This document shows, one piece after another, positions 16,200 to 60,326 of a stretch of DNA of 64,000 nt; position 1 is the first letter of the stretch; every line of letters starts with the position of its first letter. This DNA comes from Flavobacterium tiangeerense. GTDB taxonomy: Bacteria; Bacteroidota; Bacteroidia; Flavobacteriales; Flavobacteriaceae. Where the stretch lies: assembly GCF_007830355.1 (NCBI RefSeq), contig NZ_VLKO01000008.1, forward strand, positions 1 through 64,000, read 5' to 3'. Under the pieces are notes generated by a model. The model saw only the letters and a program-made list of their open reading frames with translations. It ran no database searches and was not told where the DNA came from. The position numbers and the translations under genes were made by a program.

Positions 16200-17975
16200 A
16201 TGATAAATATCACCCGCCTCTTTGATTTCCCTTACTACCAACAAGAAAAATATACATCTATTCCGGATGCGTTGGTTACCAAACAAAATGGAGAATGGAT
16301 TAAAACCTCTACGCAAGAATACATTGCTAATGCCAATGCTATATCTCGTGCATTGATCAAACTAGGAGTTCAAAAAAATGATAAAATTGCTATCATATCC
16401 ACTAATAATAGAACTGAATGGAATGTAATGGATATTGGTGTATTACAAACAGGTGCACAAACTGTGCCTATTTATCCAACTATTGCCGAGGATGATTACG
16501 AATACATTTTAAATCACTCTGAATCTATTTATTGTTTTGTATCAGATACCGAAGTGTTACGAAAATTACGTTTGGTTCAAAAAAATGTTCCAACTTTAAG
16601 AGGGATTTACTCTTTTAATGAAATAGAAGGATGTACAAACTGGAAGGAATTACTAGTTCTAGGTCAGGATATGAGTCATCAAGATACAGTAGAGCAACGC
16701 AAAAATGATGTAAAATCAGAGGATTTAGCTACTATTATTTACACTTCTGGGACAACAGGAAGACCAAAAGGAGTAATGTTATCGCACCAAAATATAGTTT
16801 CTAATGTTTTAGACAGCGCCAAAAGAATTCCTTTTGAAGCAGGAAAAAGTAGAGCGTTGAGCTTCTTGCCTATTTGCCACATTTTTGAACGCATGATTCT
16901 CTATTTATACCAATATTATGGTGTTTCCATCTATTTTGGAGAATCAATTGAGCGAATTAGTGACAACATTAAAGAAGTACAACCTACTGTAATTACTGCT
17001 GTTCCTAGACTTCTTGAAAAAGTATATGATAAAATATATGCTAAAGGAACGGAGCTTACTGGAATAAAGAAAAAACTTTTTTTCTGGGCAATCGATTTAG
17101 GTCTTGTATATGAGCCTTATGGCAAAAACGGATTTTGGTATGAGTTCCAACTTAAAATTGCACGAAAACTAATTTTTAGCAAATGGAAAGAAGGTTTAGG
17201 CGGAAAATTAGACTTGATGGTATCTGGAAGTGCTGCTTTGCAACCTAGATTAGCCAGAATATTTGCTGCTGCAGAAATTCCTGTTATGGAAGGATACGGA
17301 CTGACGGAAACTTCTCCTGTTATTTCTGTAAACGATCTTAGAAACAAAGGTTTTAGAGTAGGTACAGTTGGAAAAGTGATTGATAACGTATCTGTAGTAA
17401 TTGCCGAAGATGGTGAAATTCTTTGTAAAGGACCCAATGTAATGATGGGATATTACAAAGACCCACAATTAACCAGTGAGGTTATTACAGATAATTACTT
17501 TCATACAGGTGACATAGGAGAATTTGACAAAGAAGGATTCTTGAAGATAACAGATCGTAAAAAAGAAATGTTTAAAACCTCAGGAGGTAAATATATTGCT
17601 CCGCAACTAATTGAAAATACCATGAAACAATCTCGCTTTATTGAGCAAATCATGGTTATAGGTGATGGACAAAAAATGCCTGGAGCCTTCATTCAACCTA
17701 GTTTTGAATTTATTAAAGAATGGGCTTTAATTCATAAAATTGAATTAGGTAGCAGCAATGAAGCTATTGTAGCCAATGAAAAAGTAATAGAACGCATTCA
17801 GCAAGAAGTTGATACTTTGAATGAAAAATTTGGAAATTGGGAAAAAATAAAACGTTTTGAACTTACGCCAAATATATGGTCTATAGAAGGAGGAGAACTC
17901 ACTCCTACTCTAAAATTAAAACGAAAAATAGTTTTACAAAAATATGCTGACTTATTTAATAAAATTTACAATTAA
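16200..17975 (+). CDS. fadD: Long-chain acyl-CoA synthetase (AMP-forming)
   Basis: 591-residue adenylate-forming enzyme that activates free fatty acids with ATP and CoA at the inner membrane. The AMP-binding motif TIIYTSGTTGRPKGVMLSH lies at about residues 179-197, followed by GYGLTETSPVIS and the hinge TGDIGEFDKEGFLKITDRKK and lysine-bearing C-terminal subdomain. The length fits the long-chain (FadD15/FAA1-like) group. It is transcribed alone, with its own terminator, upstream of the MarR-fadN-fadA-fadE unit that would use its product. Confidence 0.92.
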   Translation: MINITRLFDFPYYQQEKYTSIPDALVTKQNGEWIKTSTQEYIANANAISRALIKLGVQKNDKIAIISTNNRTEWNVMDIGVLQTGAQTVPIYPTIAEDDYEYILNHSESIYCFVSDTEVLRKLRLVQKNVPTLRGIYSFNEIEGCTNWKELLVLGQDMSHQDTVEQRKNDVKSEDLATIIYTSGTTGRPKGVMLSHQNIVSNVLDSAKRIPFEAGKSRALSFLPICHIFERMILYLYQYYGVSIYFGESIERISDNIKEVQPTVITAVPRLLEKVYDKIYAKGTELTGIKKKLFFWAIDLGLVYEPYGKNGFWYEFQLKIARKLIFSKWKEGLGGKLDLMVSGSAALQPRLARIFAAAEIPVMEGYGLTETSPVISVNDLRNKGFRVGTVGKVIDNVSVVIAEDGEILCKGPNVMMGYYKDPQLTSEVITDNYFHTGDIGEFDKEGFLKITDRKKEMFKTSGGKYIAPQLIENTMKQSRFIEQIMVIGDGQKMPGAFIQPSFEFIKEWALIHKIELGSSNEAIVANEKVIERIQQEVDTLNEKFGNWEKIKRFELTPNIWSIEGGELTPTLKLKRKIVLQKYADLFNKIYN

Positions 17976-18744: not shown

Positions 18745-18811
18745 TTAGGATCTAATATATCATTTGACAGATAAACCATTACAAATTAAAAAAAACAAAC
18801 ATAAACGAAGT

Positions 18812-21202
18812 ATGAAACGCACCATCAAAAAAGTTGCAGTAATAGGATCCGGAATTATGGGATCTGGAATTGCTTGTCATTTTGCTAACATTGGAGTTGA
18901 AGTATTGCTTTTGGACATTATCCCAAGAGAATTGACTGATGCCGAAGCAAAAAAAGGACTCACACTAGAGAGTAAAATTGTTAGAAATCGATTGGTAAAT
19001 GAGCATTTAGCCAATTCTTTGAAATCAAAACCATCCCCTATTTACAGTCAAAAATTTGCGAACCGCATCACAACTGGTAATACAACAGATGACATGGCAA
19101 AGATTGCTGGTGTAGATTGGATTATTGAGGTTGTTGTAGAAAGACTTGATATTAAAAAATTAGTTTTTGAACAAATAGAAAAATTTAGAAAACCTGGAAC
19201 ACTGGTAACTTCTAACACTTCTGGTATTCCTATTCATTTTATGAGTGAAGGAAGAAGTGAAGATTTTCAAAAGCATTTTTGCGGGACTCACTTTTTTAAC
19301 CCAGCACGTTACCTGAAATTATTTGAAATTATTCCTGGTCCACAAACAAGTACAGAGGTTTTAGATTTCCTTACGGTTTATGGTGAGAAATTTTTAGGAA
19401 AAACTTCGGTTTTGGCCAAAGATACTCCAGCGTTTATTGGAAACCGAATTGGAATTTACGGAATTCAAAGTTTGTTTCACTTGGTAAAAGAAATGGGACT
19501 TACTATTGAAGAAGTTGATAAATTAACTGGACCTGTTATTGGTCGTCCAAAATCGGCTACTTTCAGAACTGTTGATGTTGTAGGTTTAGATACTTTGGTT
19601 CATGTTGCCAATGGTATTTATGAAAACTGTCCAAATGATGAACAACATGACTTATTTAAACTTCCTGCATTTGTAAACACAATGATGGAAAACAAATGGT
19701 TGGGTAGCAAAACAGGACAAGGATTTTATAAAAAAGAAGGTAAAGACATCTTAACCTTAGATCTAGATACGTTAGAATACAGAGCTGCTAAAAAAGCATC
19801 TTTTGCAACACTTGAACTGACCAAAACTATTGATAAACCAATCAACCGTTTTAAAGTTCTTGTAAAAGGAAAAGATAAAGCAGGTGAATTTTACAGAAAA
19901 AGTTTTGCTGGTTTATTTGCTTATGTATCTAACAGAGTTCCTGAAATTTCAGATGAATTTTACAAGATAGACGATGCTATGAAAGCCGGTTTTGGATGGG
20001 AAAATGGACCATTTGAAATTTGGGACGCTATAGGTGTTGAAAAAGGAATTGAGATCATGAAGGCAGAAGGTTTAGCTCCTGCTGCATGGGTAAATGATAT
20101 GTTAGCTTCTGGAAATACTAGTTTTTATTCAGTAAAAGAAGGAGCAACGTTTTTCTACAATATTCCAAGTAAAGCGCAAATTAAAGTTCCGGGTCAAGAC
20201 GCCTTTATTATCCTAAATAACATTCGCGAAAGCAAAAAAGTATGGAGTAATAGTGGTGCAATCATCCAAGATTTAGGAGACGGAATTTTGAATTTAGAAT
20301 TCCAATCTAAAATGAATACTATTGGTGGCGATGTTTTACAAGCTATCAATAAAGCAATTGATTTATCTGAGAAAGAATATCAAGGATTGGTTATTGGAAA
20401 TCAAGCAGCGAACTTCTCTGTGGGTGCCAATATTGGAATGATTTTCATGATGGCCGTGGAGCAAGAGTATGATGAGTTGAATATGGCTATCAAAATGTTC
20501 CAAGACACGATGATGCGCGTACGTTACTCTGGAATTCCAGTTGTGGTAGCACCACACGGAATGACTTTTGGAGGTGGTTGCGAAATGAGTTTGCATGCTG
20601 ACAAAGTTGTTGCTGCAGCAGAAACCTATATGGGATTAGTTGAATTTGGTGTTGGGGTTATTCCTGGCGGTGGTGGATCTAAAGAATTGGCTATGCGTGC
20701 CTCTGATTTATTCCATAAAAATGATGTTGAGTTAAATGTATTGCAAGAATATTTCTTGACTATAGCAATGGCAAAAGTATCTACATCAGGATACGAGGCA
20801 TTTGACACTGGATTATTACAGCACGGTAAAGATATCATTGTAATCAATAAAGACAGACAGATTGCAGAAGCAAAAAAACATGCACTCTTGATGGCCGAAG
20901 CTGGTTACACACAACCGATACGTAGAACGGATGTAAAAGTACTAGGAAAACAAGCTCTTGGGATGTTCTTAGTAGGTACAGATCAAATGGAAGCTGGAAA
21001 ATACATCTCTGAACATGATAAAAAAATAGCTAATAAACTAGCTTACGTTATGGCAGGTGGTGACTTATCTGAGCCAACACTAGTAAGCGAACAATATTTA
21101 TTGGACATTGAAAGAGAAGCTTTCTTATCGTTATGTACAGAGAGAAAAACATTAGAAAGAATCCAATTTATGTTGACCAAAGGGAAACCGTTGAGAAATT
21201 AA
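18812..21202 (+). CDS. fadN: 3-hydroxyacyl-CoA dehydrogenase / enoyl-CoA hydratase fusion (FadN type)
   Basis: 796 residues from ATG 18812 (an upstream TTG would add 16 unlikely residues). The N-terminal 3-hydroxyacyl-CoA dehydrogenase has the NAD motif GSGIMG (12-17) and HFFNPARYLKLFEIIPGP. The C-terminal crotonase domain includes GMTFGGGCEMSLHADKV and LVEFGVGVIPGGGGS, with Glu about residue 610. The dehydrogenase-first order matches FadN/YusL of Bacillus rather than E. coli FadB, where hydratase comes first. It carries out the hydration and NAD-dependent oxidation steps of beta-oxidation, feeding the thiolase encoded next. Confidence 0.93.
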   Translation: MKRTIKKVAVIGSGIMGSGIACHFANIGVEVLLLDIIPRELTDAEAKKGLTLESKIVRNRLVNEHLANSLKSKPSPIYSQKFANRITTGNTTDDMAKIAGVDWIIEVVVERLDIKKLVFEQIEKFRKPGTLVTSNTSGIPIHFMSEGRSEDFQKHFCGTHFFNPARYLKLFEIIPGPQTSTEVLDFLTVYGEKFLGKTSVLAKDTPAFIGNRIGIYGIQSLFHLVKEMGLTIEEVDKLTGPVIGRPKSATFRTVDVVGLDTLVHVANGIYENCPNDEQHDLFKLPAFVNTMMENKWLGSKTGQGFYKKEGKDILTLDLDTLEYRAAKKASFATLELTKTIDKPINRFKVLVKGKDKAGEFYRKSFAGLFAYVSNRVPEISDEFYKIDDAMKAGFGWENGPFEIWDAIGVEKGIEIMKAEGLAPAAWVNDMLASGNTSFYSVKEGATFFYNIPSKAQIKVPGQDAFIILNNIRESKKVWSNSGAIIQDLGDGILNLEFQSKMNTIGGDVLQAINKAIDLSEKEYQGLVIGNQAANFSVGANIGMIFMMAVEQEYDELNMAIKMFQDTMMRVRYSGIPVVVAPHGMTFGGGCEMSLHADKVVAAAETYMGLVEFGVGVIPGGGGSKELAMRASDLFHKNDVELNVLQEYFLTIAMAKVSTSGYEAFDTGLLQHGKDIIVINKDRQIAEAKKHALLMAEAGYTQPIRRTDVKVLGKQALGMFLVGTDQMEAGKYISEHDKKIANKLAYVMAGGDLSEPTLVSEQYLLDIEREAFLSLCTERKTLERIQFMLTKGKPLRN

Positions 21203-21223
21203 TTTTAAATTATAAATGATGAC

Positions 21224-21260
21224 TTATAAAGTTCAAATGATTTTCATTTCAAATTTATAA
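21224..21260. repeat. Imperfect inverted repeat between fadN and fadA
   Basis: Two 17-nt arms (21224-21240 and 21244-21260) pair at 15 of 17 positions around a TTT loop. It is AT-rich and not followed by a T run, so it is more likely an mRNA-stability element or intergenic repeat than a terminator. Confidence 0.55.
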
Positions 21261-21282
21261 TTCAAAATTCAAAATACTAGTT

Positions 21283-22464
21283 ATGAAAACAGCCTATATA
21301 GTAAAAGCATACAGAACAGCCGTGGGGAAAGCCCCAAAAGGAGTGTTCAGATTTAAACGTCCTGATGAATTAGCAGCAGAAACCATCGAGTTTATGATGA
21401 ATGAGTTGCCAAGTTTTGATAAAACACGCATTGATGACGTTATGGTAGGAAATGCAATGCCAGAGGCAGAACAAGGACTAAACGTTGCGAGACTTATTTC
21501 GTTAATGGGTTTAAAAGTAGAAGATGTTCCTGGTGTTACTGTAAACAGATATTGTGCTTCTGGTTTGGAAACTATTGGTATGGCTACGGCTAAAATTCAA
21601 TCAGGTATGGCACATTGTATTATTGCAGGTGGAGCTGAAAGCATGAGTTTTATCCCAATGGGAGGTTACAAACCAACTCCGGATTATGCTGTTGCAAAAG
21701 CTGGAAACGAGGATTACTACTGGGGAATGGGTCTTACTGCTGAAGCAGTAGCACAACAATTTAAAGTATCTCGTGAGGATCAAGATGAATTTGCATACCA
21801 CTCTCACATGAAAGCTTTGCAAGCACAAGCTGATGGTAAATTTGACAAGCAAATTGTTCCTATTACGGTGGAACAAACATTCCTTAATGAAAACGGAAAA
21901 AAAGAAACCAAATCATACGTTGTAAATAAAGACGAAGGTCCAAGAGCTGGTACATCAAAAGAAGCTTTGGCTGGATTACGTCCTGTTTTTGAAGCAAATG
22001 GAAGTGTAACTGCAGGTAACTCATCACAAATGAGTGATGGTGCTGCTTTTGTGTTGATCATGAGCGAAGAAATGGTAAAAGAGTACAACTTAGAGCCTAT
22101 TGCTCGTTTGGTAAATTTCGCTTCGGCAGGAGTTGAACCAAGAATCATGGGAATAGGACCTGTAAAAGCAATACCAAAAGTACTAAAACAAGCAGGTTTA
22201 ACAATTAATGATATTGATTTAATAGAGTTAAACGAAGCTTTTGCTTCTCAAGCATTAGCTGTAACCCGTGAATTAAACTTAAATCCAGAAATCATTAATG
22301 TAAATGGAGGTGCTATTGCACTAGGTCATCCACTAGGATGTACTGGAGCAAAACTATCAGTACAATTGTTTGATGAAATGAAACGCAGAGGAAGCAAATA
22401 CGGAATTGTAAGTATGTGTGTAGGTACTGGACAAGGCTCTGCAGGTGTTTACGAACTTTTGTAA
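21283..22464 (+). CDS. fadA: Acetyl-CoA acyltransferase (3-ketoacyl-CoA thiolase)
   Basis: 393-residue degradative thiolase that splits 3-ketoacyl-CoA with CoA to give acetyl-CoA and a shortened acyl-CoA. The acyl-accepting Cys91 lies in NRYCASGLETIG, the C-terminal histidine in GGAIALGHPLGCTGAKL and the second catalytic Cys in CVGTGQGSAGVYELL. Length and motifs are normal. It is the middle gene of fadN-fadA-fadE, 80 nt after fadN and 40 nt before fadE. Confidence 0.95.
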   Translation: MKTAYIVKAYRTAVGKAPKGVFRFKRPDELAAETIEFMMNELPSFDKTRIDDVMVGNAMPEAEQGLNVARLISLMGLKVEDVPGVTVNRYCASGLETIGMATAKIQSGMAHCIIAGGAESMSFIPMGGYKPTPDYAVAKAGNEDYYWGMGLTAEAVAQQFKVSREDQDEFAYHSHMKALQAQADGKFDKQIVPITVEQTFLNENGKKETKSYVVNKDEGPRAGTSKEALAGLRPVFEANGSVTAGNSSQMSDGAAFVLIMSEEMVKEYNLEPIARLVNFASAGVEPRIMGIGPVKAIPKVLKQAGLTINDIDLIELNEAFASQALAVTRELNLNPEIINVNGGAIALGHPLGCTGAKLSVQLFDEMKRRGSKYGIVSMCVGTGQGSAGVYELL

Positions 22465-22504
22465 GCTTAGATTTTAAATAAAAAACATATTAAAAAATAA
22501 AAAA

Positions 22505-24310
22505 ATGGCAGATACAATTGAAAAAAACGTAACCCGTGGAGGTCAGTTTTTAGTTAAAGAAACAAAATGTGAAGATATTTTCACACCTGAAGATTTTACA
22601 GAAGAGCAATTAATGATGCGTGACTCTGTGAAAGAGTTTGTAGACAAAGAGTTGTGGGCACACAAAGATCGTTTTGAAAAAAAGGATTATGCTTACACGG
22701 AAGAATCCATGAGAAAAGCTGGTGAGCTAGGACTTTTAGGAGTTGCAGTACCTGAAGCTTATGGTGGATTAGGAATGGGGTTTGTATCAACTATGTTAGT
22801 TTGTGATTACATTTCTGGAGCAACTGGATCGTTCTCAACTGCTTTTGGAGCTCATACAGGAATTGGTACTATGCCAATCACATTATATGGATCTGAGGAG
22901 CAAAAATTAAAATACGTTCCTAAACTTGCTTCGGGAGAGTGGTTTGGTGCTTATTGCCTAACGGAGCCAGGAGCTGGATCTGATGCTAATTCAGGAAAAA
23001 CTAAAGCAGTTTTATCTGAAGATGGAACGCACTATTCTATCACTGGTCAAAAAATGTGGATCTCAAATGCAGGTTTCTGTAGTTTGTTTATTGTTTTTGC
23101 TAGAATTGGTGATGATAAAAACATTACAGGTTTCATAGTTGAAAATACAGATAACAACGGAATCTCAATGGGTGAAGAAGAGCATAAACTAGGAATTCGT
23201 GCTTCATCTACTCGTCAAGTTTTCTTTAACGAAACTAAAGTTCCTGTTGAAAACATGTTATCTGAAAGAGGTAATGGTTTTAAAATAGCGATGAACGCAC
23301 TTAACGTAGGAAGAATTAAATTGGCAGCTGCTTGTCTTGATGCACAACGTAGAGTAATTACAGGATCTGTAAAATATGCTAATGAAAGAATCCAATTTAA
23401 TACAGCTATTTCTCAATTTGGTGCAATTCGTTCTAAATTAGCTGAGATGGCAACTTCTTGCTACGCAGGAGAAAGTGCTTCTTACCGTGCAGCAAAAGAT
23501 ATTGAAGACAGAATCATTGCTCGTGAAGCAGAAGGAACTTCTCATCAAGAAGCTGAATTAAAAGGAGTTGAAGAATATGCGATCGAATGTTCAATCTTGA
23601 AAGTTGCTGTATCAGAAGACGTTCAAAACTGTTCTGATGAAGGAATTCAAATTTTTGGAGGTATGGGATTCTCTGAAGATACTCCAATGGAAAGTGCTTG
23701 GAGAGATGCAAGAATTGCTCGTATTTACGAAGGTACAAATGAGATTAACAGAATGCTTTCAGTAGGTATGTTAATTAAAAAAGCAATGAAAGGGCACGTT
23801 GATTTATTAGGACCTGCTATGAAAGTATCTGAAGAGTTGATGGGAATTCCATCATTTGACACACCAGACTACTCAGAATTATTTGCAGAGGAAAAAGAAA
23901 TCATCAAAAACTTAAAGAAATCTTTCTTGATGGTTGCTGGTAGTGCTGTTAAAAAATTTGGAGCTGACTTAGATGCACACCAACAATTATTAATGGCTGC
24001 TTCGGATATGCTTATTGAAGTTTACATGGCAGAAAGTACTATCTTAAGAACTGAGAAATTAGCTAAAAAAGAAGGAGAAGATAAAGTTCAAGAACAAATT
24101 GCAATGGCTAAACTTTACTTATACAAAGCCGTTGATATTGTAAACCAAAAAGGAAAAGAAAGCATTATTTCTTTTGCTGAAGGTGATGAGCAACGTATGA
24201 TGTTAATGGGATTACGTCGTTTTACAAAATACACAAATATGCCAAATGTAGTGGCATTAAGAGAAATAATTACTGCTAAACTAGTAGCAGAAAATGAATA
24301 TTGTTTCTAA
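22505..24310 (+). CDS. fadE: Acyl-CoA dehydrogenase, long FadE (YusJ) type
   Basis: 601-residue FAD enzyme for the first oxidation step of beta-oxidation. The classic fold occupies about residues 30-440: YCLTEPGAGSDANSGKTKA and MWISNAGFC in the FAD/substrate domain, and EGIQIFGGMGFSEDTPMESA plus RIYEGTNEINR near the catalytic Glu. An extra C-terminal helical region of about 150 residues makes it longer than the common 380-residue enzymes, as in Bacillus FadE. It is the last gene of the operon and is followed by a strong terminator. Confidence 0.94.
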   Translation: MADTIEKNVTRGGQFLVKETKCEDIFTPEDFTEEQLMMRDSVKEFVDKELWAHKDRFEKKDYAYTEESMRKAGELGLLGVAVPEAYGGLGMGFVSTMLVCDYISGATGSFSTAFGAHTGIGTMPITLYGSEEQKLKYVPKLASGEWFGAYCLTEPGAGSDANSGKTKAVLSEDGTHYSITGQKMWISNAGFCSLFIVFARIGDDKNITGFIVENTDNNGISMGEEEHKLGIRASSTRQVFFNETKVPVENMLSERGNGFKIAMNALNVGRIKLAAACLDAQRRVITGSVKYANERIQFNTAISQFGAIRSKLAEMATSCYAGESASYRAAKDIEDRIIAREAEGTSHQEAELKGVEEYAIECSILKVAVSEDVQNCSDEGIQIFGGMGFSEDTPMESAWRDARIARIYEGTNEINRMLSVGMLIKKAMKGHVDLLGPAMKVSEELMGIPSFDTPDYSELFAEEKEIIKNLKKSFLMVAGSAVKKFGADLDAHQQLLMAASDMLIEVYMAESTILRTEKLAKKEGEDKVQEQIAMAKLYLYKAVDIVNQKGKESIISFAEGDEQRMMLMGLRRFTKYTNMPNVVALREIITAKLVAENEYCF

Positions 24311-25634: not shown

Positions 25635-26414
25635 ATGGAAAATAATACTAGCAGAAGAAGTTTTTTAAAGCAAACAGCAATACTTTCAACAGGAACCTTA
25701 ATAGGGAGTTCTTTATTACAGGACGCTTTTGCAAATACTACTCAGCCCCTACTCGAAGAAACTGGGAGCGATATATTTACTAATAGCATTGAAGAAGGAA
25801 CATTTGTATTACCAAAATTACCTTATTCTACTGATGCTCTTGAGCCTCATATTGATAAAGCTACTATGGAAATTCATCATGGAAAACACCATCAAGCGTA
25901 CGTAACCAACTTGAATAAGGCGATAGGAACTCTTGATAAAAAACTGGTCGAATCTTCTAGCTCACTCGAAACTATATTTAAAAAAATGTCACAGTTTCCA
26001 GATTCAATACGTAATAATGCGGGAGGCCATTACAATCACACCCTATTTTGGGAGTTACTCTCTCCTAATGGTGGAGGTTTGCCTAAAGGGAAACTAGCCC
26101 AAGCAATTACTAGTAGTTTTGGTTCATTTGATGAATTCAAAAAACAATTTGCTGACGCTTCCATGAAACGTTTTGGTTCAGGTTGGGCATGGCTAGTAGT
26201 TAAAGATGGTCAACTCGTAATTGGTTCCACAGCTAATCAAGATAATCCATTAATGCGTTTGAAAGGAAAAGGTCTTAAAGGCAAACCGGTCATGGCTTTA
26301 GATGTTTGGGAACATGCTTATTACTTCAAAAATCAAAACCGAAGAGCTGATTACATCAACTCTTTTTGGAATGTAATTAACTGGGAAAAAGCTGAACAAC
26401 TTTTTAATTCCTAA
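25635..26414 (+). CDS. Tat-exported superoxide dismutase (Mn/Fe family)
   Basis: 259 residues. The N-terminus is a twin-arginine signal (SRRSFLK at 6-12, then a hydrophobic stretch to about residue 33), so the folded, metal-loaded enzyme should be exported to the periplasm. All four metal ligands are present: His in [13 protein letters not shown], His in [10 protein letters not shown], and Asp and His in [12 protein letters not shown] before the second ligand and Gln in [10 protein letters not shown] indicate the Mn-type active site. It removes superoxide outside the cytoplasm. A second exported SOD is at 59504. Monocistronic. Confidence 0.93.
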
Positions 26415-54658: not shown

Positions 54659-55030
54659 ATGGCGAAAAAGACTATAAACAATGATATCCTTCTGGCAAAT
54701 ATCATTAAAGGAATAGAAGAAGTAAAAGGAAATGATATTACCATCCTCGATTTAAGAGAAATTGATACTGCAGTATGTGACTATTTTGTAATCTCAAATG
54801 GAAATTCAAACACCCAAGTTAATGCAATTGTAAATTCAATTCAAAAAACAGTATCTAAAGAATTAAAAGACAAACCTTGGCATGTAGAGGGTACTGATAA
54901 TGCAGAATGGGTATTGATGGACTATGTAAATATCGTAGTTCATGTATTTCAAAAACACATTCGAGAATATTACAACATCGAAAGTTTATGGGGCGATGCT
55001 AAAATAACAACCATAGAAAACAAATACTAA
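54659..55030 (+). CDS. rsfS: Ribosome silencing factor RsfS
   Basis: 123 residues. Binds uL14 on the 50S subunit and blocks subunit joining when nutrients are scarce. Core motifs LREIDTAVCDYFVISNGNS and PWHVEGTDNAEWVLMDY are intact. The gene is 18 nt upstream of ftsH, a conserved Bacteroidota pair, and divergent from birA. Confidence 0.95.
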   Translation: MAKKTINNDILLANIIKGIEEVKGNDITILDLREIDTAVCDYFVISNGNSNTQVNAIVNSIQKTVSKELKDKPWHVEGTDNAEWVLMDYVNIVVHVFQKHIREYYNIESLWGDAKITTIENKY

Positions 55031-55048
55031 AGACACATATCCGTAGTA

Positions 55049-56974
55049 ATGGCTAAAGAAAATAATCCAAACCCGAATAAGTTTAAAGTAAGCCCGTGGC
55101 TTGTTTACACTTCAGTAATTTTAATTCTTTTGTTCATCAGCATAACTTTCCAAGGAAATGGGCTAAATGAGCCGGGACAATTGACTGCTTCAAAATTCAA
55201 CGAATACTTACAAAAAGGACAAATTGAAAAAGTTATTGTTTATAATAAAACCGAAGCAGAAGTTTTCTTGAATGCCAATGCCATCAAGGAAGTAGCTCAT
55301 AAAAAAGTATCTAAAGATGTTTTTGATAGAGAAAATAAAGGTCCTCATTATACATTTGACATTGGTAACGATCAAATTTTTCAAAACAAGTTAGAAAAAG
55401 CAGTTGCTGAGGGAAAATTAAAAGATTTTAGTTTTTTACCAAAAAACAATTGGTCTGATATATTAATCAGTTTACTTCCTATCATCATAATTATCGCGGT
55501 ATGGATATTTATTATGCGCAAAATGTCTGGTGGCGGTGCTGGCGGTGGTGGACAAATTTTTAACATTGGAAAATCAAAAGCCAAACTTTTTGATGAAAAA
55601 ACGGATATCAAAACTACATTTAAAGATGTAGCGGGTCTTGAAGGTGCAAAAGAAGAAATACAAGAAATTGTAGAATTTCTTAAAAACCCTGAAAAATACA
55701 CTAATTTGGGTGGTAAAATACCAAAAGGCGCCTTACTTGTAGGACCTCCAGGAACAGGAAAAACATTATTAGCCAAAGCTGTTGCCGGTGAAGCTCAAGT
55801 ACCATTTTTCTCTTTATCAGGATCTGATTTTGTGGAAATGTTTGTTGGTGTAGGTGCATCACGTGTAAGAGACTTATTTAAACAAGCTAAAGAAAAATCA
55901 CCTGCCATCATTTTTATTGACGAGATTGATGCTGTAGGTAGAGCAAGAGGCAAAAGTAACATGTCAGGAGGTAACGACGAGCGTGAAAATACGTTGAACC
56001 AATTATTGACAGAAATGGATGGTTTTGGTACCAACTCAAATGTTATTGTTCTTGCTGCAACAAACAGAGCTGACGTACTGGATAAAGCTTTAATGCGTGC
56101 TGGTCGTTTTGATAGACAAATTTTTGTTGACTTACCAGACATTCGTGAAAGAGCCGAAATATTTAAAGTTCATTTAGCTCCTTTGAAAAAAATTGAAGGT
56201 CTTGATACTGACTTTTTAGCTAAACAAACTCCAGGTTTTTCAGGTGCAGATATTGCAAATGTATGTAACGAAGCGGCTTTAATAGCAGCAAGAAATAACA
56301 AATCTGCAGTAGATAAACAAGATTTCTTAGATGCTGTCGATAGAATTGTTGGTGGTTTAGAAAAGAAAAACAAAATTGTTACACCTGAAGAGAAAAAAGC
56401 AATTGCAATACACGAAGCGGGTCACGCAACTGTTAGCTGGATGCTAGAGCACGCTGCTCCATTAATAAAAGTAACAATAGTACCTAGAGGTCAAAGTTTA
56501 GGTGCAGCATGGTATTTACCAGAGGAAAGACTAATTGTACGTCCAGACCAAATGCTTGATGAAATGTGTGCTACAATGGGTGGTAGAGCTGCTGAAAAAG
56601 TAACATTTGATAGAATCTCTACTGGAGCATTAAGTGACTTAGAGAAAGTAACCAAACAAGCTCGCGCTATGGTTACCGTTTATGGTTTGAATGACAAAAT
56701 AGGTAACGTTACCTATTATGATTCAACAGGACAAAGTGAGTATAACTTCTCAAAACCATACTCTGAAGAGACTGCAAAAGTTATTGATGAGGAGATCTCG
56801 TTATTAATTGAAAGCCAATACCAAAGAGCGATTCAAATTCTAGAAGACAACAAAGACAAGCTAAATCAACTTGCCAACATCTTAATAGAGAAAGAAGTAA
56901 TATTTAAAGATGATCTTGAGGCAATTTTTGGCAAAAGAACATTTGACAAAAATCTTGAAGAAGTAGTATCGTAA
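55049..56974 (+). CDS. ftsH: ATP-dependent zinc metalloprotease FtsH
   Basis: 641 residues. Two transmembrane segments (about 16-36 and 136-156) bracket a periplasmic domain. The AAA+ module has Walker A GPPGTGKTLLAKA, Walker B IIFIDEIDAVG and the second region of homology ATNRADVLDKALMRAGRFD. The zinc protease has HEAGHATVSWML. It degrades membrane and short-lived proteins, including regulators of lipid balance. Co-transcribed with rsfS. Confidence 0.97.
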   Translation: MAKENNPNPNKFKVSPWLVYTSVILILLFISITFQGNGLNEPGQLTASKFNEYLQKGQIEKVIVYNKTEAEVFLNANAIKEVAHKKVSKDVFDRENKGPHYTFDIGNDQIFQNKLEKAVAEGKLKDFSFLPKNNWSDILISLLPIIIIIAVWIFIMRKMSGGGAGGGGQIFNIGKSKAKLFDEKTDIKTTFKDVAGLEGAKEEIQEIVEFLKNPEKYTNLGGKIPKGALLVGPPGTGKTLLAKAVAGEAQVPFFSLSGSDFVEMFVGVGASRVRDLFKQAKEKSPAIIFIDEIDAVGRARGKSNMSGGNDERENTLNQLLTEMDGFGTNSNVIVLAATNRADVLDKALMRAGRFDRQIFVDLPDIRERAEIFKVHLAPLKKIEGLDTDFLAKQTPGFSGADIANVCNEAALIAARNNKSAVDKQDFLDAVDRIVGGLEKKNKIVTPEEKKAIAIHEAGHATVSWMLEHAAPLIKVTIVPRGQSLGAAWYLPEERLIVRPDQMLDEMCATMGGRAAEKVTFDRISTGALSDLEKVTKQARAMVTVYGLNDKIGNVTYYDSTGQSEYNFSKPYSEETAKVIDEEISLLIESQYQRAIQILEDNKDKLNQLANILIEKEVIFKDDLEAIFGKRTFDKNLEEVVS

Positions 56975-57000
56975 ATAATACATAATATCAATTATTTTTA

Positions 57001-57042
57001 AAATCTTAATTCAAAAACAATTTTTGAATTAAGATTTTTTTA
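57001..57042 (+). terminator. Terminator after ftsH
   Basis: 16-nt arms AAATCTTAATTCAAAA / TTTTGAATTAAGATTT with a short loop, followed by a T run that runs directly into the next -7 element. Confidence 0.9.
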
Positions 57043-57048
57043 TCTTTG
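57041..57048 (+). promoter_or_regulatory. -7 element (TATCTTTG) of the membrane-lipid operon
   Basis: Exact TAnnTTTG directly after the ftsH terminator, 41 nt before ATG 57090. Confidence 0.65.
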
Positions 57049-57089
57049 AACGGTTTTTATACCTTTAATTATTGTTTTCAAAAATAAAT

Positions 57090-57692
57090 ATGAGTCTTTT
57101 TAGAAAAATTTTTGGTTCAAGTCATCCGGCTGCTGAAGAGCAAAAAGAAAGTGAATTTAGTACTTACTATAAGGAACCAACTGTGTCTATAGACGAGCAA
57201 TTTATTTTTAATTTCAAAAAAAACGGTGGTAAATTTTTATACTGTGAAAACAACTTAGAAATTACGGAGCAGTTTGAAAACATACTTGAAGAAAACGACT
57301 GGTTTGAAAGTGAAGTTCTTTGTTACGATTCCGAACTTTTTAAGTTACTTGATGATAATAAACTTACTTATGACAAACCTGAAAATCCTAAATTTTTGCT
57401 GTCTAGTTGTGAAAGTTTGATTGCCGAAGAGGGTTCTATCTTGTTTTCATCCAAACAAATCAAACAACACAAACCAAACGATCTTCCTACAAACATGATT
57501 ATTATGGCTAAAGCCAGCCAAATCATGGGAACCAAAAGCGATGGTTTAAGTGCCATTAAGAAAAAATACGAAAGAGATTATCCAACTAATATTTCAACTA
57601 TAAAGTATTTCGAAAAAGCCAAAGAAGAGGACTTCACTCAATATGGAAGTTCCGCAAAGAATCTGTATTTATTGCTTTTAGAAGATCTTTAA
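57090..57692 (+). CDS. LUD-domain protein (LutC-like)
   Basis: 200 residues from ATG 57090 (six residues shorter than the longest frame). The LUD/LutC fold ends with NLYLLLLEDL and contains LISCE-type segments such as LLSSCESLIAEEGSILFSSK. LutC is part of the lactate oxidation complex LutABC, but no lutA or lutB is adjacent, so the role here is uncertain. It is first in a unit with cdsA, psd, an acyl-CoA-binding protein and SOD, with its stop 1 nt before the cdsA start. Confidence 0.82.
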   Translation: MSLFRKIFGSSHPAAEEQKESEFSTYYKEPTVSIDEQFIFNFKKNGGKFLYCENNLEITEQFENILEENDWFESEVLCYDSELFKLLDDNKLTYDKPENPKFLLSSCESLIAEEGSILFSSKQIKQHKPNDLPTNMIIMAKASQIMGTKSDGLSAIKKKYERDYPTNISTIKYFEKAKEEDFTQYGSSAKNLYLLLLEDL

Positions 57693-57693
57693 G

Positions 57694-58584
57694 ATGAATG
57701 AAACTCTAAAACGAGGAATATCCGGAGTAGTTTACATAGTTTTACTACTTACATCTATATTATATTCGACTGAAACTTTTTTTATACTTTTTGGTATATT
57801 TTTGCTCATTGCCATATATGAATTTTGTAATCTGGTACAAATTCATAAAGTGTTTCCAATCATTTTTGGTTTTTCATTGTACTCTACAGTGGCACTTGTG
57901 AGCCATTATAATCAAGAAACTGTTTCTTTTTTAAAGACTAATTTTGACTTAGATATAGACTTAAACATCAATATTCAGCAATTAAATATTGTTCTACTGG
58001 TCATTGCTCTTGTTGTAACTTTAAAATGTATTCTTTTTTTATTTTATGATTCTATCCAAAAAATTAATACTTCGTCAAAATATCTATATCTATTAGGTTA
58101 CATAATCCTTCCTTTTGTATTTATTACTAAAATCTCTTTTGGAGTTATTGATTATAATCCTAAAATTATCATTGGCCTATTTATACTCATTTGGACTAAC
58201 GATACCTTTGCGTACATTGTTGGGAAATCCATTGGAAAAACAAAATTACTAGAAAAAATATCTCCTAAAAAAACAGTTGAAGGTTTTCTAGGTGGACTTC
58301 TCTTTGCGGTTGTTGCAGGATATTTAATATCAAAATATTACATCAAAGCCAAACCCGAGTTTAGTGATCGTTCCATACTAATTTGGACTTCAATAGCAGT
58401 TATTGTGGGGGTTGCAGGCACAATTGGGGATTTAATTGAATCTAAATTCAAGCGCATTGCAAACGTAAAAGACAGCGGAAACATCATGCCGGGTCATGGA
58501 GGTATACTAGATCGACTAGATAGTGTTATATTTGTAGCACCATTAATATTTTTATTCTATCAAATTTTAAATTATGTTTCATAA
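57694..58584 (+). CDS. cdsA: Phosphatidate cytidylyltransferase
   Basis: 296 residues with about seven or eight transmembrane helices. Makes CDP-diacylglycerol from phosphatidic acid and CTP at the inner membrane. The CDS signature is complete: SKFKRIANVKDSGNIMPGHG followed by GILDRLD. The downstream psd gene overlaps its end by 11 nt, which couples the two steps of phosphatidylethanolamine synthesis. Confidence 0.95.
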   Translation: MNETLKRGISGVVYIVLLLTSILYSTETFFILFGIFLLIAIYEFCNLVQIHKVFPIIFGFSLYSTVALVSHYNQETVSFLKTNFDLDIDLNINIQQLNIVLLVIALVVTLKCILFLFYDSIQKINTSSKYLYLLGYIILPFVFITKISFGVIDYNPKIIIGLFILIWTNDTFAYIVGKSIGKTKLLEKISPKKTVEGFLGGLLFAVVAGYLISKYYIKAKPEFSDRSILIWTSIAVIVGVAGTIGDLIESKFKRIANVKDSGNIMPGHGGILDRLDSVIFVAPLIFLFYQILNYVS

Positions 58585-59227
58585 AGAAGGAACCCAATCT
58601 ATTTTACTAGGCACCATTTTTACTGCGGTTGTCCTTTTATTGTCTGACAATTTAATTGAGACCAACTGGCTCAAAATGGCTGTTCAAATACTAGCTCTTT
58701 TGCTGTTGATCATCATTTTACAATTTTTTAGAAATCCTAAAAGAACTGTTATCATTAATGAGAATCATATAATTGCACCTGTTGATGGTAAAGTTGTCGT
58801 TATAGAAGAGGTATATGAAGGAGAATATTTTAAAGACAAAAGACTTCAAGTATCTATTTTCATGTCGCCAATAAATGTTCACGTTACTCGATATGCCTTA
58901 AGCGGTATTGTAAAGTTTAGTAAATACCATCCTGGTAAATTTCTTGTTGCTTGGCACCCTAAGGCAAGTGAAGAAAATGAAAGAACAACAATTGTTGTAG
59001 AAAACAGTACTTTTGGTGGCGTTTTGTACCGTCAAATTGCTGGCGCACTGGCACGTAGAATTGTAAATTATGCAGTAGAAGGAACTCAAGTAACTCAAGG
59101 TACCGATGCTGGATTTATAAAATTTGGATCAAGAGTTGATATATTTTTACCTTTGGGAACTCCTATTAATGTGGAATTGAACCAAAAGGCTATTGGAGGA
59201 AAAACTATTATTGCAACCAAGGCATAA
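58574..59227 (+). CDS. psd: Phosphatidylserine decarboxylase proenzyme
   Basis: 217 residues, the short type II-like form. One or two N-terminal hydrophobic segments (about 8-52), then APVDGKVV (Asp71), SPINVHVTRYALSG (His103) and the self-cleavage site KFGS (Gly185-Ser186), which makes the pyruvoyl group. It produces phosphatidylethanolamine. No pssA is in the window. The stop overlaps the next start (TAATG). Confidence 0.95.
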   Translation: MFHKEGTQSILLGTIFTAVVLLLSDNLIETNWLKMAVQILALLLLIIILQFFRNPKRTVIINENHIIAPVDGKVVVIEEVYEGEYFKDKRLQVSIFMSPINVHVTRYALSGIVKFSKYHPGKFLVAWHPKASEENERTTIVVENSTFGGVLYRQIAGALARRIVNYAVEGTQVTQGTDAGFIKFGSRVDIFLPLGTPINVELNQKAIGGKTIIATKA

Positions 59228-59496
59228 TGACCAAAAAGGATTTAGATACTTTATTCCTAGAAGCTGTAGCTAAGGCAGCCGATATGACGCAAGCATCCTT
59301 ACCACAGGATGTACAATTGCGGTTGTACGCTTTTTACAAACAAGCTACTTATGGCACTGTTGATTTAAGACAAAATTCATCGTTTCACTTGAGAGATGCA
59401 TTTAAAACAAACGCTTGGATGCAAATAAGTCATTTATCTCCTGATGAAGCCAAACAATATTATATTGAAATCATTGACTCACTAATAAAATCATAA
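59227..59496 (+). CDS. Acyl-CoA-binding protein (ACBP)
   Basis: 89 residues, matching the four-helix ACBP family: QLRLYAFYKQATYGTVD (Tyr and Lys for CoA) and RDAFKTNAWMQISHLSPDEA. It binds long-chain acyl-CoA in the cytoplasm, buffering and delivering it. ACBPs are widespread in eukaryotes and patchy in bacteria. Here it is translationally coupled to psd (TAATG) and thus part of the phospholipid operon. Confidence 0.93.
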   Translation: MTKKDLDTLFLEAVAKAADMTQASLPQDVQLRLYAFYKQATYGTVDLRQNSSFHLRDAFKTNAWMQISHLSPDEAKQYYIEIIDSLIKS

Positions 59497-59503
59497 TTTA
59501 CCC

Positions 59504-60277
59504 ATGAAAAAAGCATTTTATGTGTTGCCATTAGTTTGTGCAACAGTTTTTATAGTATCCTGTAATGAGAAAAAATTAATTGAAGTTGTTGAAGTCCCTT
59601 TGCCTTCTGCTACAGAGCAAAAAACAGTTATGGGATCACCTGATAATGTAAAAGCTGATGAAGGTTCTTTTCAATTAGAAAAACTGCCGTATGCTTATGA
59701 TGCGCTAGCTCCGAGCATATCAGCTACTACAATGGAGTTGCATTACTCTAAACATTATCTAAATTACACAAACAATCTAAACAGCTCCATAAAAGGAACA
59801 CCTCTTGAAAATTTAACTATCGAAGAAGTGCTTGCAAAACTGGATCCTAATGATGCAGGGCTACGTAACAATGCTGGAGGATATTACAACCACAGTTTGT
59901 TTTGGAAATGTATGGGAGCAAAAGCTGGCGGTGAACCAAAAAACACTTTAGCTAGTGCAATGATAACTGATTTTGGATCTTACGGTAATTTTATGTCTCT
60001 TTTTAAAGATGAAGCTACAAAACATTTTGGATCAGGTTGGGTTTGGCTTATAGTAGATAAAACGGGTAAATTACAAGTTACAACAACTACAAATCAAGAC
60101 AATCCTTTGATGCGAAATGCCATTGTTCCAGGAACACCAATTCTTGCACTTGACTTATGGGAACATGCCTATTATATGGATTATCAATACCGAAGAAAAA
60201 ACTATGTTGATAATTTTTTTAATATTATCAACTGGAATAAAATTGAAGAAAATTATACGGCTGTAGCCATTAAATAG
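59504..60277 (+). CDS. Lipoprotein superoxide dismutase (Mn/Fe family)
   Basis: 257 residues. A lipoprotein signal peptide ends at VSC (Cys20) and a linker of about 35 residues precedes the SOD domain. All four metal ligands are kept (MELHYSKHYLNYTNNLN, GGYYNHSLFW, LDLWEHAYY) and Gln in TTTTNQDNPLM marks the Mn type. The second His of the usual HH pair is Tyr here. It should scavenge superoxide at the membrane surface. Seven nt after the ACBP gene, so probably in the same operon. Confidence 0.93.
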   Translation: MKKAFYVLPLVCATVFIVSCNEKKLIEVVEVPLPSATEQKTVMGSPDNVKADEGSFQLEKLPYAYDALAPSISATTMELHYSKHYLNYTNNLNSSIKGTPLENLTIEEVLAKLDPNDAGLRNNAGGYYNHSLFWKCMGAKAGGEPKNTLASAMITDFGSYGNFMSLFKDEATKHFGSGWVWLIVDKTGKLQVTTTTNQDNPLMRNAIVPGTPILALDLWEHAYYMDYQYRRKNYVDNFFNIINWNKIEENYTAVAIK

Positions 60278-60290
60278 TTCTCGTAAAAAG

Positions 60291-60326
60291 AAAAAAAGCT
60301 GCTAAAAATTTTAGCAGCTTTTTTTT
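60291..60326. terminator. Bidirectional terminator between the SOD and amylase genes
   Basis: Stem AAAGCTGCTAAAA / TTTTAGCAGCTTT with A and T runs on either side, between convergent genes. Confidence 0.9.

Follow-up and report, generated by a model that had tools for sequence, protein, structure and literature searches.

An acyl-CoA-binding protein (ACBP) gene lies right behind cdsA and psd in Flavobacterium tiangeerense and in many relatives of its order, and this arrangement is real and conserved. We analysed a stretch of 64,000 nts from this bacterium (the window), in which genes for a LUD-domain protein, CdsA, Psd, ACBP and a superoxide dismutase (SOD) are arranged head to tail. The most likely role of the ACBP is buffering: with a probability of about 0.55, we read it as a general acyl-CoA buffer and carrier, co-expressed at the 3' end of a membrane-lipid block and tied to phosphatidylethanolamine synthesis.

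Gene content and packing

All genes described here are on the + strand. The upstream end of the conserved neighbourhood is rsfS, a ribosome silencing factor (54659..55030; PF02410, 113.3 bits), followed by ftsH, a membrane AAA protease (55049..56974; PF01434, 213.7 bits; PF00004, 164.1 bits). Next come the LUD-domain protein (57090..57692; PF02589 (LUD_dom), 31.9 bits, cut-off 22.6), the phosphatidate cytidylyltransferase cdsA (57694..58584; PF01148 (CTP_transf_1), 179.7 bits), a short-type phosphatidylserine decarboxylase, psd (58574..59227; PF02666 (PS_Dcarbxylase), 137.5 bits), the ACBP of 89 amino acids (59227..59496; PF00887, 62.8 bits, cut-off 28.3) and an Fe/Mn SOD (59504..60277; PF02777 (Sod_Fe_C), 129.3 bits; PF00081 (Sod_Fe_N), 91.9 bits). 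These Pfam matches agree with the gene names given in the original prediction. We describe the LUD-domain protein by its Pfam domain, and assign it no function; its mechanical open reading frame runs from a TTG at 57072, and an ATG is found at 57090. Amongst the NCBIfam equivalogs, psd belongs to PRK05305.1-2 (276.6 bits, cut-off 225), cdsA scores 109.2 bits, under the cut-off of 385, and the SOD match is likewise under its cut-off. No NCBIfam family matches LUD or ACBP at E 0.001. Both psd and ACBP have a single match in the whole genome. The N-terminus of the SOD is lipoprotein-like, as judged by eye.

The five genes are as tightly packed as first described: LUD and cdsA are separated by 1 nt, cdsA and psd overlap by 11 nts, psd and ACBP overlap by 1 nt (TAATG), and ACBP and SOD are separated by 7 nts. 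The packing is beyond chance, since the psd-ACBP distance stays between -8 and +6 nts in all 80 named Flavobacterium-like loci (the best 80 of 355 confirmed). From LUD to SOD, the window has one strand, tiny gaps, a promoter-like start and a terminator-like end, and the five genes are probably co-transcribed as one unit in Flavobacterium.

The promoter-like start is a TAnnTTTG box (TATCTTTG, 57041..57048, + strand), a putative -7 box for LUD onward; we take this consensus to be that of the Bacteroidota -7 box. The box begins 44-49 nts ahead of the LUD start codon in 76/76 usable named loci (from the best 80 of 355). The four loci left out are L034, L086 and L091, without an ftsH or LUD match, and L071, with about 1.4 kb from ftsH to LUD. 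We see no clear -33 element beside the box, and TAnnTTTG occurs 121 times in the window when both strands are counted. A promoter scan of the sigma-70 type, with 35 sites for 24.7 expected, was left unused. Just upstream of the box, still between ftsH and LUD, there is an A+T-rich perfect 18-bp inverted repeat with a 3-nt loop and then T (57000..57038, + strand), a possible ftsH terminator that the terminator scan did not list. Behind SOD, a perfect 17-bp inverted repeat (60291..60325, + strand) is a possible operon terminator, which the terminator scan gives on the - strand. The promoter-like box, which is conserved, and the inverted repeats that flank the window's genes thus seem to bound a unit, and we count this in favor of co-expression.

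In Flavobacterium, the promoter-like box and, in the window, the terminator-like repeat part ftsH from LUD. The spacing between the two genes is 13-44 nts in the four loci read from family f6 and 142 nts in the single locus from family f2, and co-expression with ftsH is possible in the f6 loci because the gaps there are short.

Conservation of the arrangement

In 57 of the 64 ACBP-bearing genomes of the order, which belong to three families, psd adjoins ACBP; 47 were identified by HMM coordinates (contig and coordinates compared, irrespective of strand) and 10 by reading the loci. Together with the 80/80 named loci (best 80 of 355), this rejects an adjacency limited to one strain, one of the two outcomes that would have undone the original prediction, and the conserved slot across three families rules out a strain quirk. 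In two genomes, G057 and G164, the operon psd is missing and the Psd matches are on other contigs, while ACBP is still behind cdsA. The position of ACBP is thus not owed to Psd itself, and the idea of Psd as the partner fixing that position is weakened.

The neighbourhood extends upstream of LUD, also in other genera, with rsfS in 77/80 and ftsH in 77/80 of the named loci (best 80 of 355; some cut by contig ends). In 17 of the 18 psd loci of the same order without a neighbouring ACBP we find the order rsfS-ftsH-cdsA-psd, with LUD detected in 12. This comparison suggests that ACBP has been added, as an optional gene, at the 3' end of an older rsfS-ftsH-(LUD)-cdsA-psd block. SOD is present in 79/80 named loci (best 80 of 355) versus 0/12 loci in the family's other genera, and has apparently been added to the operon at the genus level. 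We therefore do not treat LUD to SOD as an evolutionary unit.

The presence of ACBP also varies between families. In f6, the 23 ACBP-bearing genomes have sizes of 2.3-4.5 Mb, and amongst the 16 without ACBP, 15 have 1.5-2.0 Mb and one has 3.2 Mb. All 16 have psd. As these mostly small genomes keep psd without ACBP, ACBP is accessory rather than a core step. Family f4 (1.7-5.2 Mb, psd present, mostly 4-6 copies of 3HCDH, a beta-oxidation marker) has no ACBP match.

The ACBP protein

The window ACBP looks genuine. Its Pfam score of 62.8 bits is well over the cut-off of 28.3, and the structure model (pLDDT 87.5) is an up-down four-helix bundle with helices at 3-19, 27-42, 55-66 and 72-88. PDB ACBPs head the lists of matches, with 5h3i_C at Z 15.0, rmsd 1.8 and 88 aligned residues, and the sequence search agrees with the structure search. 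FERM-domain rows reach up to Z 10.8, ahead of yeast ACBP at 10.0, which leaves a moderate margin for a helical bundle. The four residues Y28, K32, K54 and Y73 (bovine numbering), which we take to be the CoA contacts, are kept in 76/76 distinct Flavobacterium-like sequences, that of the window included, and in 41, 39, 38 and 41, respectively, amongst a further 41 distinct sequences from the psd-linked group. The counts use the 150 distinct sequences amongst 179 ACBP rows, and the 41 others include more members of the window's genus as well as G057 and G164. One report also names F5 and Y73 (PMC7057175). Of 15 pairs, 9 are unsaturated, and their median dN/dS of 0.067 indicates purifying selection. 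From its sequence and its model, the window ACBP is predicted to bind acyl-CoA. Some relatives' ACBPs need not do so, judging by two f6 genomes (L156, L157) in which ACBP is outside the operon and all four contacts are lost.

Which pathway the ACBP serves

In part of the order, the ACBP gene is the 3'-terminal member of an ftsH-LUD-cdsA-psd membrane-lipid block. As a general buffer, the protein would be cytosolic and its production would keep pace with phosphatidylethanolamine synthesis. It would keep free long-chain acyl-CoA low, with the acyl-CoA coming from fatty-acid uptake or lipid turnover, and what it holds would stay available to acyltransferases and to beta-oxidation alike. Family f4, which has psd and 3HCDH yet shows no ACBP match, goes against this buffering role. 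So would an ACBP that rides in a housekeeping operon merely for steady expression.

That second possibility, in which a strong housekeeping operon gives ACBP constant expression and the pathway of its neighbours is irrelevant, is one we regard as tentative and somewhat unlikely. It fits several other Bacteroidota ACBPs that adjoin unrelated genes (citrate synthase, LepA, phosphodiesterase, RNA methyltransferase), and three f6 genomes (L003, L006/L158, L010/L159) in which ACBP is away from psd with the four contact residues kept. It sits poorly with the same slot in 57/64 genomes and the near-zero gaps in the named loci; because the slot is retained over three families, hitch-hiking without a benefit from co-expression seems unlikely.

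It is unlikely that the ACBP serves fatty-acid beta-oxidation despite its position, as may be so in some other Bacteroidota. Both ACBP-bearing f16 genomes (L162, L169) have a canonical ACBP amid beta-oxidation genes, and in L171 ACBP is fused to a thiolase, with an acyl-CoA dehydrogenase alongside. Only 4/27 canonical loci are linked to beta-oxidation genes. The window does include beta-oxidation genes (18764-24310), as the original prediction had noted, and an AMP-ligase (16200-17975). The flanks of the psd-linked named loci (best 80 of 355) include no homologue of the window's beta-oxidation genes other than a thiolase, 36% identical, in L073. Across the order, 3HCDH is present in 64/64 ACBP-bearing genomes versus 87/132 without ACBP, and in f6 at least 5 copies are found in 23/23 genomes with ACBP versus 1/16 without, a contrast that genome size confounds. 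Genomes of Flavobacteriaceae (f1) carry ACBP and mostly 3 copies of 3HCDH, those of f4 mostly 4-6 copies and no ACBP. 3HCDH co-occurrence does not discriminate, and ACBP cannot be taken as a beta-oxidation marker.

The original prediction read the TAATG coupling as a hint that ACBP supplies acyl chains to phospholipid synthesis and not to beta-oxidation. Put specifically, ACBP would bring acyl-CoA to glycerolipid acylation, a step ahead of CdsA and Psd in the pathway. We find this quite doubtful. Its conserved neighbours are cdsA and psd, and the near lack of beta-oxidation homologues in the flanks agrees with it, but CdsA and Psd work after acylation and use no acyl-CoA. In its favor, too, neither PlsX nor PlsY has a match in the window's own genome, so the first acylation is probably done by another enzyme, which could take acyl-CoA or acyl-ACP; seven PF01553 acyltransferase matches are found. 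None of the seven matches a PlsB model in NCBIfam at E 1e-5. ACBP as a substitute for a missing PlsY route is not borne out: absence of PlsY is not associated with presence of ACBP (10/64 genomes with ACBP versus 24/132 without, Fisher p = 0.84). With G057 and G164 keeping ACBP without this psd, the small genomes keeping psd without ACBP, and the 3HCDH counts, the specific claim is unsupported.

A very improbable reading makes the psd-linked ACBP an acyl-CoA gauge within an envelope-balance module. When loaded with acyl-CoA, it would inform FtsH, encoded four genes upstream, of the supply or turnover of lipids, and this input would set the ratio of phospholipid to lipopolysaccharide. According to one report, FtsH degradation of LpxC in E. 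coli is inhibited by acyl-CoA, by a route not yet known to its authors (PMC5874903).

Relation to known systems

In the literature covered, from which most subscription journals are missing, there is nothing relevant on psd with ACBP or an ACBP operon in Flavobacterium, on ftsH-cdsA-psd in Bacteroidetes, or on prokaryotic ACBP in phospholipid synthesis. Sequence surveys have made bacterial ACBPs known, but the parts of this literature that were accessible assign them no tested cellular role. The ACBP lineage right behind cdsA-psd, kept in one family and in some genomes of two more, is a defined and genetically tractable setting for studying the role of a prokaryotic ACBP. Natural variants point to the strains to compare: those in which the operon psd is absent and ACBP kept, those in which ACBP has moved and lost its contacts, small genomes in which ACBP is absent and, elsewhere, the ACBP-thiolase fusion.

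The closest known proteins are the small ACBPs (ACBD1 type; PF00887), such as rice OsACBP2 (5h3i, 6kf8) and yeast ACBP (1st7). The window ACBP shares with them the four-helix fold, a length of about 89 amino acids, and Y28, K32, K54 and Y73. Sequence identity across the ACBP matches of the structure search is 24-38%. The window ACBP differs in its bacterial phospholipid operon, in the replacement of W55 by T and in the loop ahead of helix 3, which has no ERPG-like stretch. The canonical Bacteroidota ACBPs (L112-L138) are of the same family with nearly the same contacts. They score about 85-107 bits, versus 29-71 for the type in the window's order, and none of their 27 loci, each about 3 kb at most, shows linkage to psd. 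In a tree of 85 rows, limited to 9 of the named 80 to keep a single genus from dominating, they are on a separate side from the type of the window's order (support 92/82). Finally, the rsfS-ftsH-(LUD)-cdsA-psd block without ACBP, found in the same order, has the gene order in common with the window and differs in that no ACBP follows psd.

The locus and its gene products

Downstream of rsfS and ftsH, the five genes at 57090-60277 (forward strand) are as tightly packed as originally predicted, in the order LUD-cdsA-psd-ACBP-SOD; the first and last junctions are gaps (1 and 7 nt), the two in the middle overlaps (11 and 1 nt). Their products match the Pfam models for the LUD domain, CdsA, Psd, the acyl-CoA-binding protein (ACBP) and Fe/Mn superoxide dismutase (SOD), and NCBIfam assigns the psd product to the short type of Psd. 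The whole genome has one ACBP match and one Psd match. We compared the locus with 80 Flavobacterium-like ACBP loci, hereafter the named loci, which are the best 80 of 355 found by ACBP similarity and a dense sample of one genus. The closest of these 80 belongs to Flavobacterium sp. I-STPP5a, with an ACBP 97% identical, and on such relatedness the window's genome is a Flavobacterium.

The window's ACBP looks real by profile score, sequence matches, model and residues. It scores 62.8 bits against the PF00887 profile (Pfam cut-off 28.3), and a sequence search with it retrieves solved ACBPs. The AlphaFold2 model, built with 32 aligned relatives as input, has four helices and a mean pLDDT of 87.5. 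Its top solved structures are ACBPs (5h3i_C, TM-score 0.87, Z 15.0), on a scale where unrelated FERM domains reach up to Z 10.8. For the contact residues we aligned the proteins to bovine ACBP and used its residue numbering. Y28, K32, K54 and Y73 are present in all 76 distinct Flavobacterium-like ACBPs; amongst the 41 other distinct psd-linked ACBPs, Y28 and Y73 are invariant, K32 is found in 39 (two have R) and K54 in 38 (three have M). In the same alignment, W55 is not conserved and the ERPG-like loop is absent. Codon comparisons indicate that purifying selection acts on the ACBP gene, with a median dN/dS of 0.067 (9 unsaturated of 15 pairs), compared to 0.046 for psd (15/15 unsaturated) and 0.10 for SOD (8/15 unsaturated). 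In Flavobacterium glycines (L042:6001-6267), the translated ACBP match holds a stop codon.

The ftsH-LUD interval of the window includes an 18-bp inverted repeat with no mismatch, as well as TATCTTTG. A TAnnTTTG box starts 44-49 nt 5' of the LUD start codon in all 76 usable named loci, which are related sequences, and no clear -33 element was seen with it upstream of LUD. A perfect 17-bp repeat lies 3' of SOD in the window. ftsH and LUD are separated by about 0.12 kb in the majority of named loci, and by about 1.4 kb in Flavobacterium gillisiae (L071). SOD is present in 79/80 named loci versus 0/12 loci of the family's other genera. Genome-wide there are three SOD matches, and the window accounts for two; the second lies at 25635-26414 and has a Tat-like RRSFLK signal identified by eye. 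At L187:5592-6344, in family f8, a superoxide dismutase gene is found tail to tail with psd.

Adjacency of psd and ACBP across the order

The placement of ACBP behind cdsA and psd is genuine, conserved and lineage-specific in bacteria of this order. The adjacency extends well beyond one strain, to 80/80 named loci and to 57 of the 64 ACBP-bearing genomes of the order, where psd lies directly 5' of ACBP. In all named loci the best ACBP ATG is -8 to +6 nt from the psd stop, and 45/80 have the TAATG overlap. Two assemblies labelled Bifidobacterium breve and Lentimicrobium (L078, L089) hold a Flavobacterium-like locus; they are probably mislabelled or mixed bins.

The 64 genomes come from 196 genomes sampled evenly over the order, with an ACBP match in 40/40 genomes of the window's family (f1), 1/2 of f2, 23/39 of f6 and none in the other families (f1, f2 and f6 totals read from the ACBP and psd match lists). 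By family, the adjacency holds in 38/40, 1/1 and 18/23 cases respectively, with a wider gap, up to 92 nt, in f6 and f2. HMM coordinates gave 47 of the 57 cases, and reading the loci themselves gave the 10 in which psd was missing from the matches listed or listed solely as a second copy elsewhere.

The exceptions are of several kinds. In G057 and G164, cdsA and ACBP lack an intervening psd, and each genome has two Psd matches on other contigs, one of the long type at about 189 bits, the other weaker, at about 116. In G073 and G142, psd and ACBP are on different contigs and the four contact residues of ACBP are intact. In G135, a draft of about 170 contigs, a psd match is absent genome-wide. 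Finally, the displaced ACBPs of G043 (L156:5938-6225, overlapping a convergent cytidylate kinase gene) and G019 (L157:5973-6260) have none of the four contact residues, and may be non-binding. On the ACBP tree (85 rows, 95 columns; inner branching poorly resolved, some long branches), three displaced ACBPs of genus g47 fall within the f6 group and thus look like secondary moves, and the G043/G019 pair is placed beside it with weak support.

The block also occurs without ACBP. Leaving aside two stretches of placeholder sequence, we collected 18 psd loci with no adjoining ACBP: those of G073 and G043, and 16 more whose genomes lack any ACBP match. An ACBP profile search of these loci found none. 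In 17/18, rsfS, ftsH, cdsA and psd are in order, and LUD was detected in 12/18. ACBP was therefore either added behind psd or lost repeatedly. In f6, the 23 genomes with ACBP measure 2.3-4.5 Mb; of the 16 without it, 15 measure 1.5-2.0 Mb and one 3.2 Mb. All 16 have psd, so ACBP is not a required step of phosphatidylethanolamine synthesis.

Phospholipid synthesis or beta-oxidation

The best reading is that ACBP is a co-expressed acyl-CoA buffer. The original prediction took the coupling to psd to suggest that ACBP feeds acyl chains to phospholipid synthesis rather than to beta-oxidation. PlsX and PlsY have no match in the window's genome, which at first favours a first acyltransferase that uses acyl-CoA. 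This genome has seven PF01553 acyltransferases, several lysophosphatidate-acyltransferase-like and none matching a PlsB model; one of the seven, an OlsF-like bifunctional aminolipid acyltransferase (L203:1291-3093), is below cut-off, at 399.8 bits versus 620. Across the 196 genomes PlsY is unrelated to ACBP (10/64 with ACBP versus 24/132 without; Fisher p = 0.84, kinship ignored), and the beta-oxidation marker PF00725 occurs in 64/64 ACBP-bearing genomes and 87/132 others. Neither co-occurrence discriminates between the two fates, and neither CdsA nor Psd uses acyl-CoA. Specific phospholipid feeding stands as one of several options that these data do not tell apart. A bolder and much less likely reading, in which acyl-CoA-loaded ACBP would report lipid supply to the FtsH protease encoded upstream, takes its acyl-CoA to FtsH link from PMC5874903; according to a title cited there, conservation of FtsH control of LpxC does not extend to every Gram-negative.

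Two ACBP types across the phylum

A literature search aimed at this ACBP arrangement found nothing relevant. According to the available part of a 2020 review (PMC7057175), 108 genera of bacteria have small ACBDs and there is a Bacteroidetes branch; their operon context is not given there. Horizontal transfer from hosts is an earlier suggestion, as cited in PMC8243069.

In the phylum, 74/392 genomes have ACBP matches, 73 above cut-off. The best scores outside the order are 84.7-107.3 bits, one sub-threshold match excepted, and three genomes of family f22 carry second copies at 65.6-67 bits. We fetched 27 Bacteroidota ACBP loci outside the psd-linked type (canonical loci, L112-L138), none with psd beside ACBP. 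Within about 1.5 kb, four of them (L114, L122, L127, L132) have a gene homologous to the beta-oxidation genes of the window. ACBP sits amid beta-oxidation genes in both ACBP-bearing f16 genomes, and in another Bacteroidota family a 530-aa thiolase-ACBP fusion (L171:119-1711, same contig as L127) adjoins an acyl-CoA dehydrogenase. A neighbour scan of part of the 27 loci also found citrate synthase, LepA, phosphodiesterase and RNA methyltransferase genes. In family f21, the canonical ACBP is near a citrate synthase (L166, L175) or RNA methyltransferase gene (L166, L174). On the tree, the canonical ACBPs and bovine ACBP split from all ACBPs of the window's order with support 92/82.
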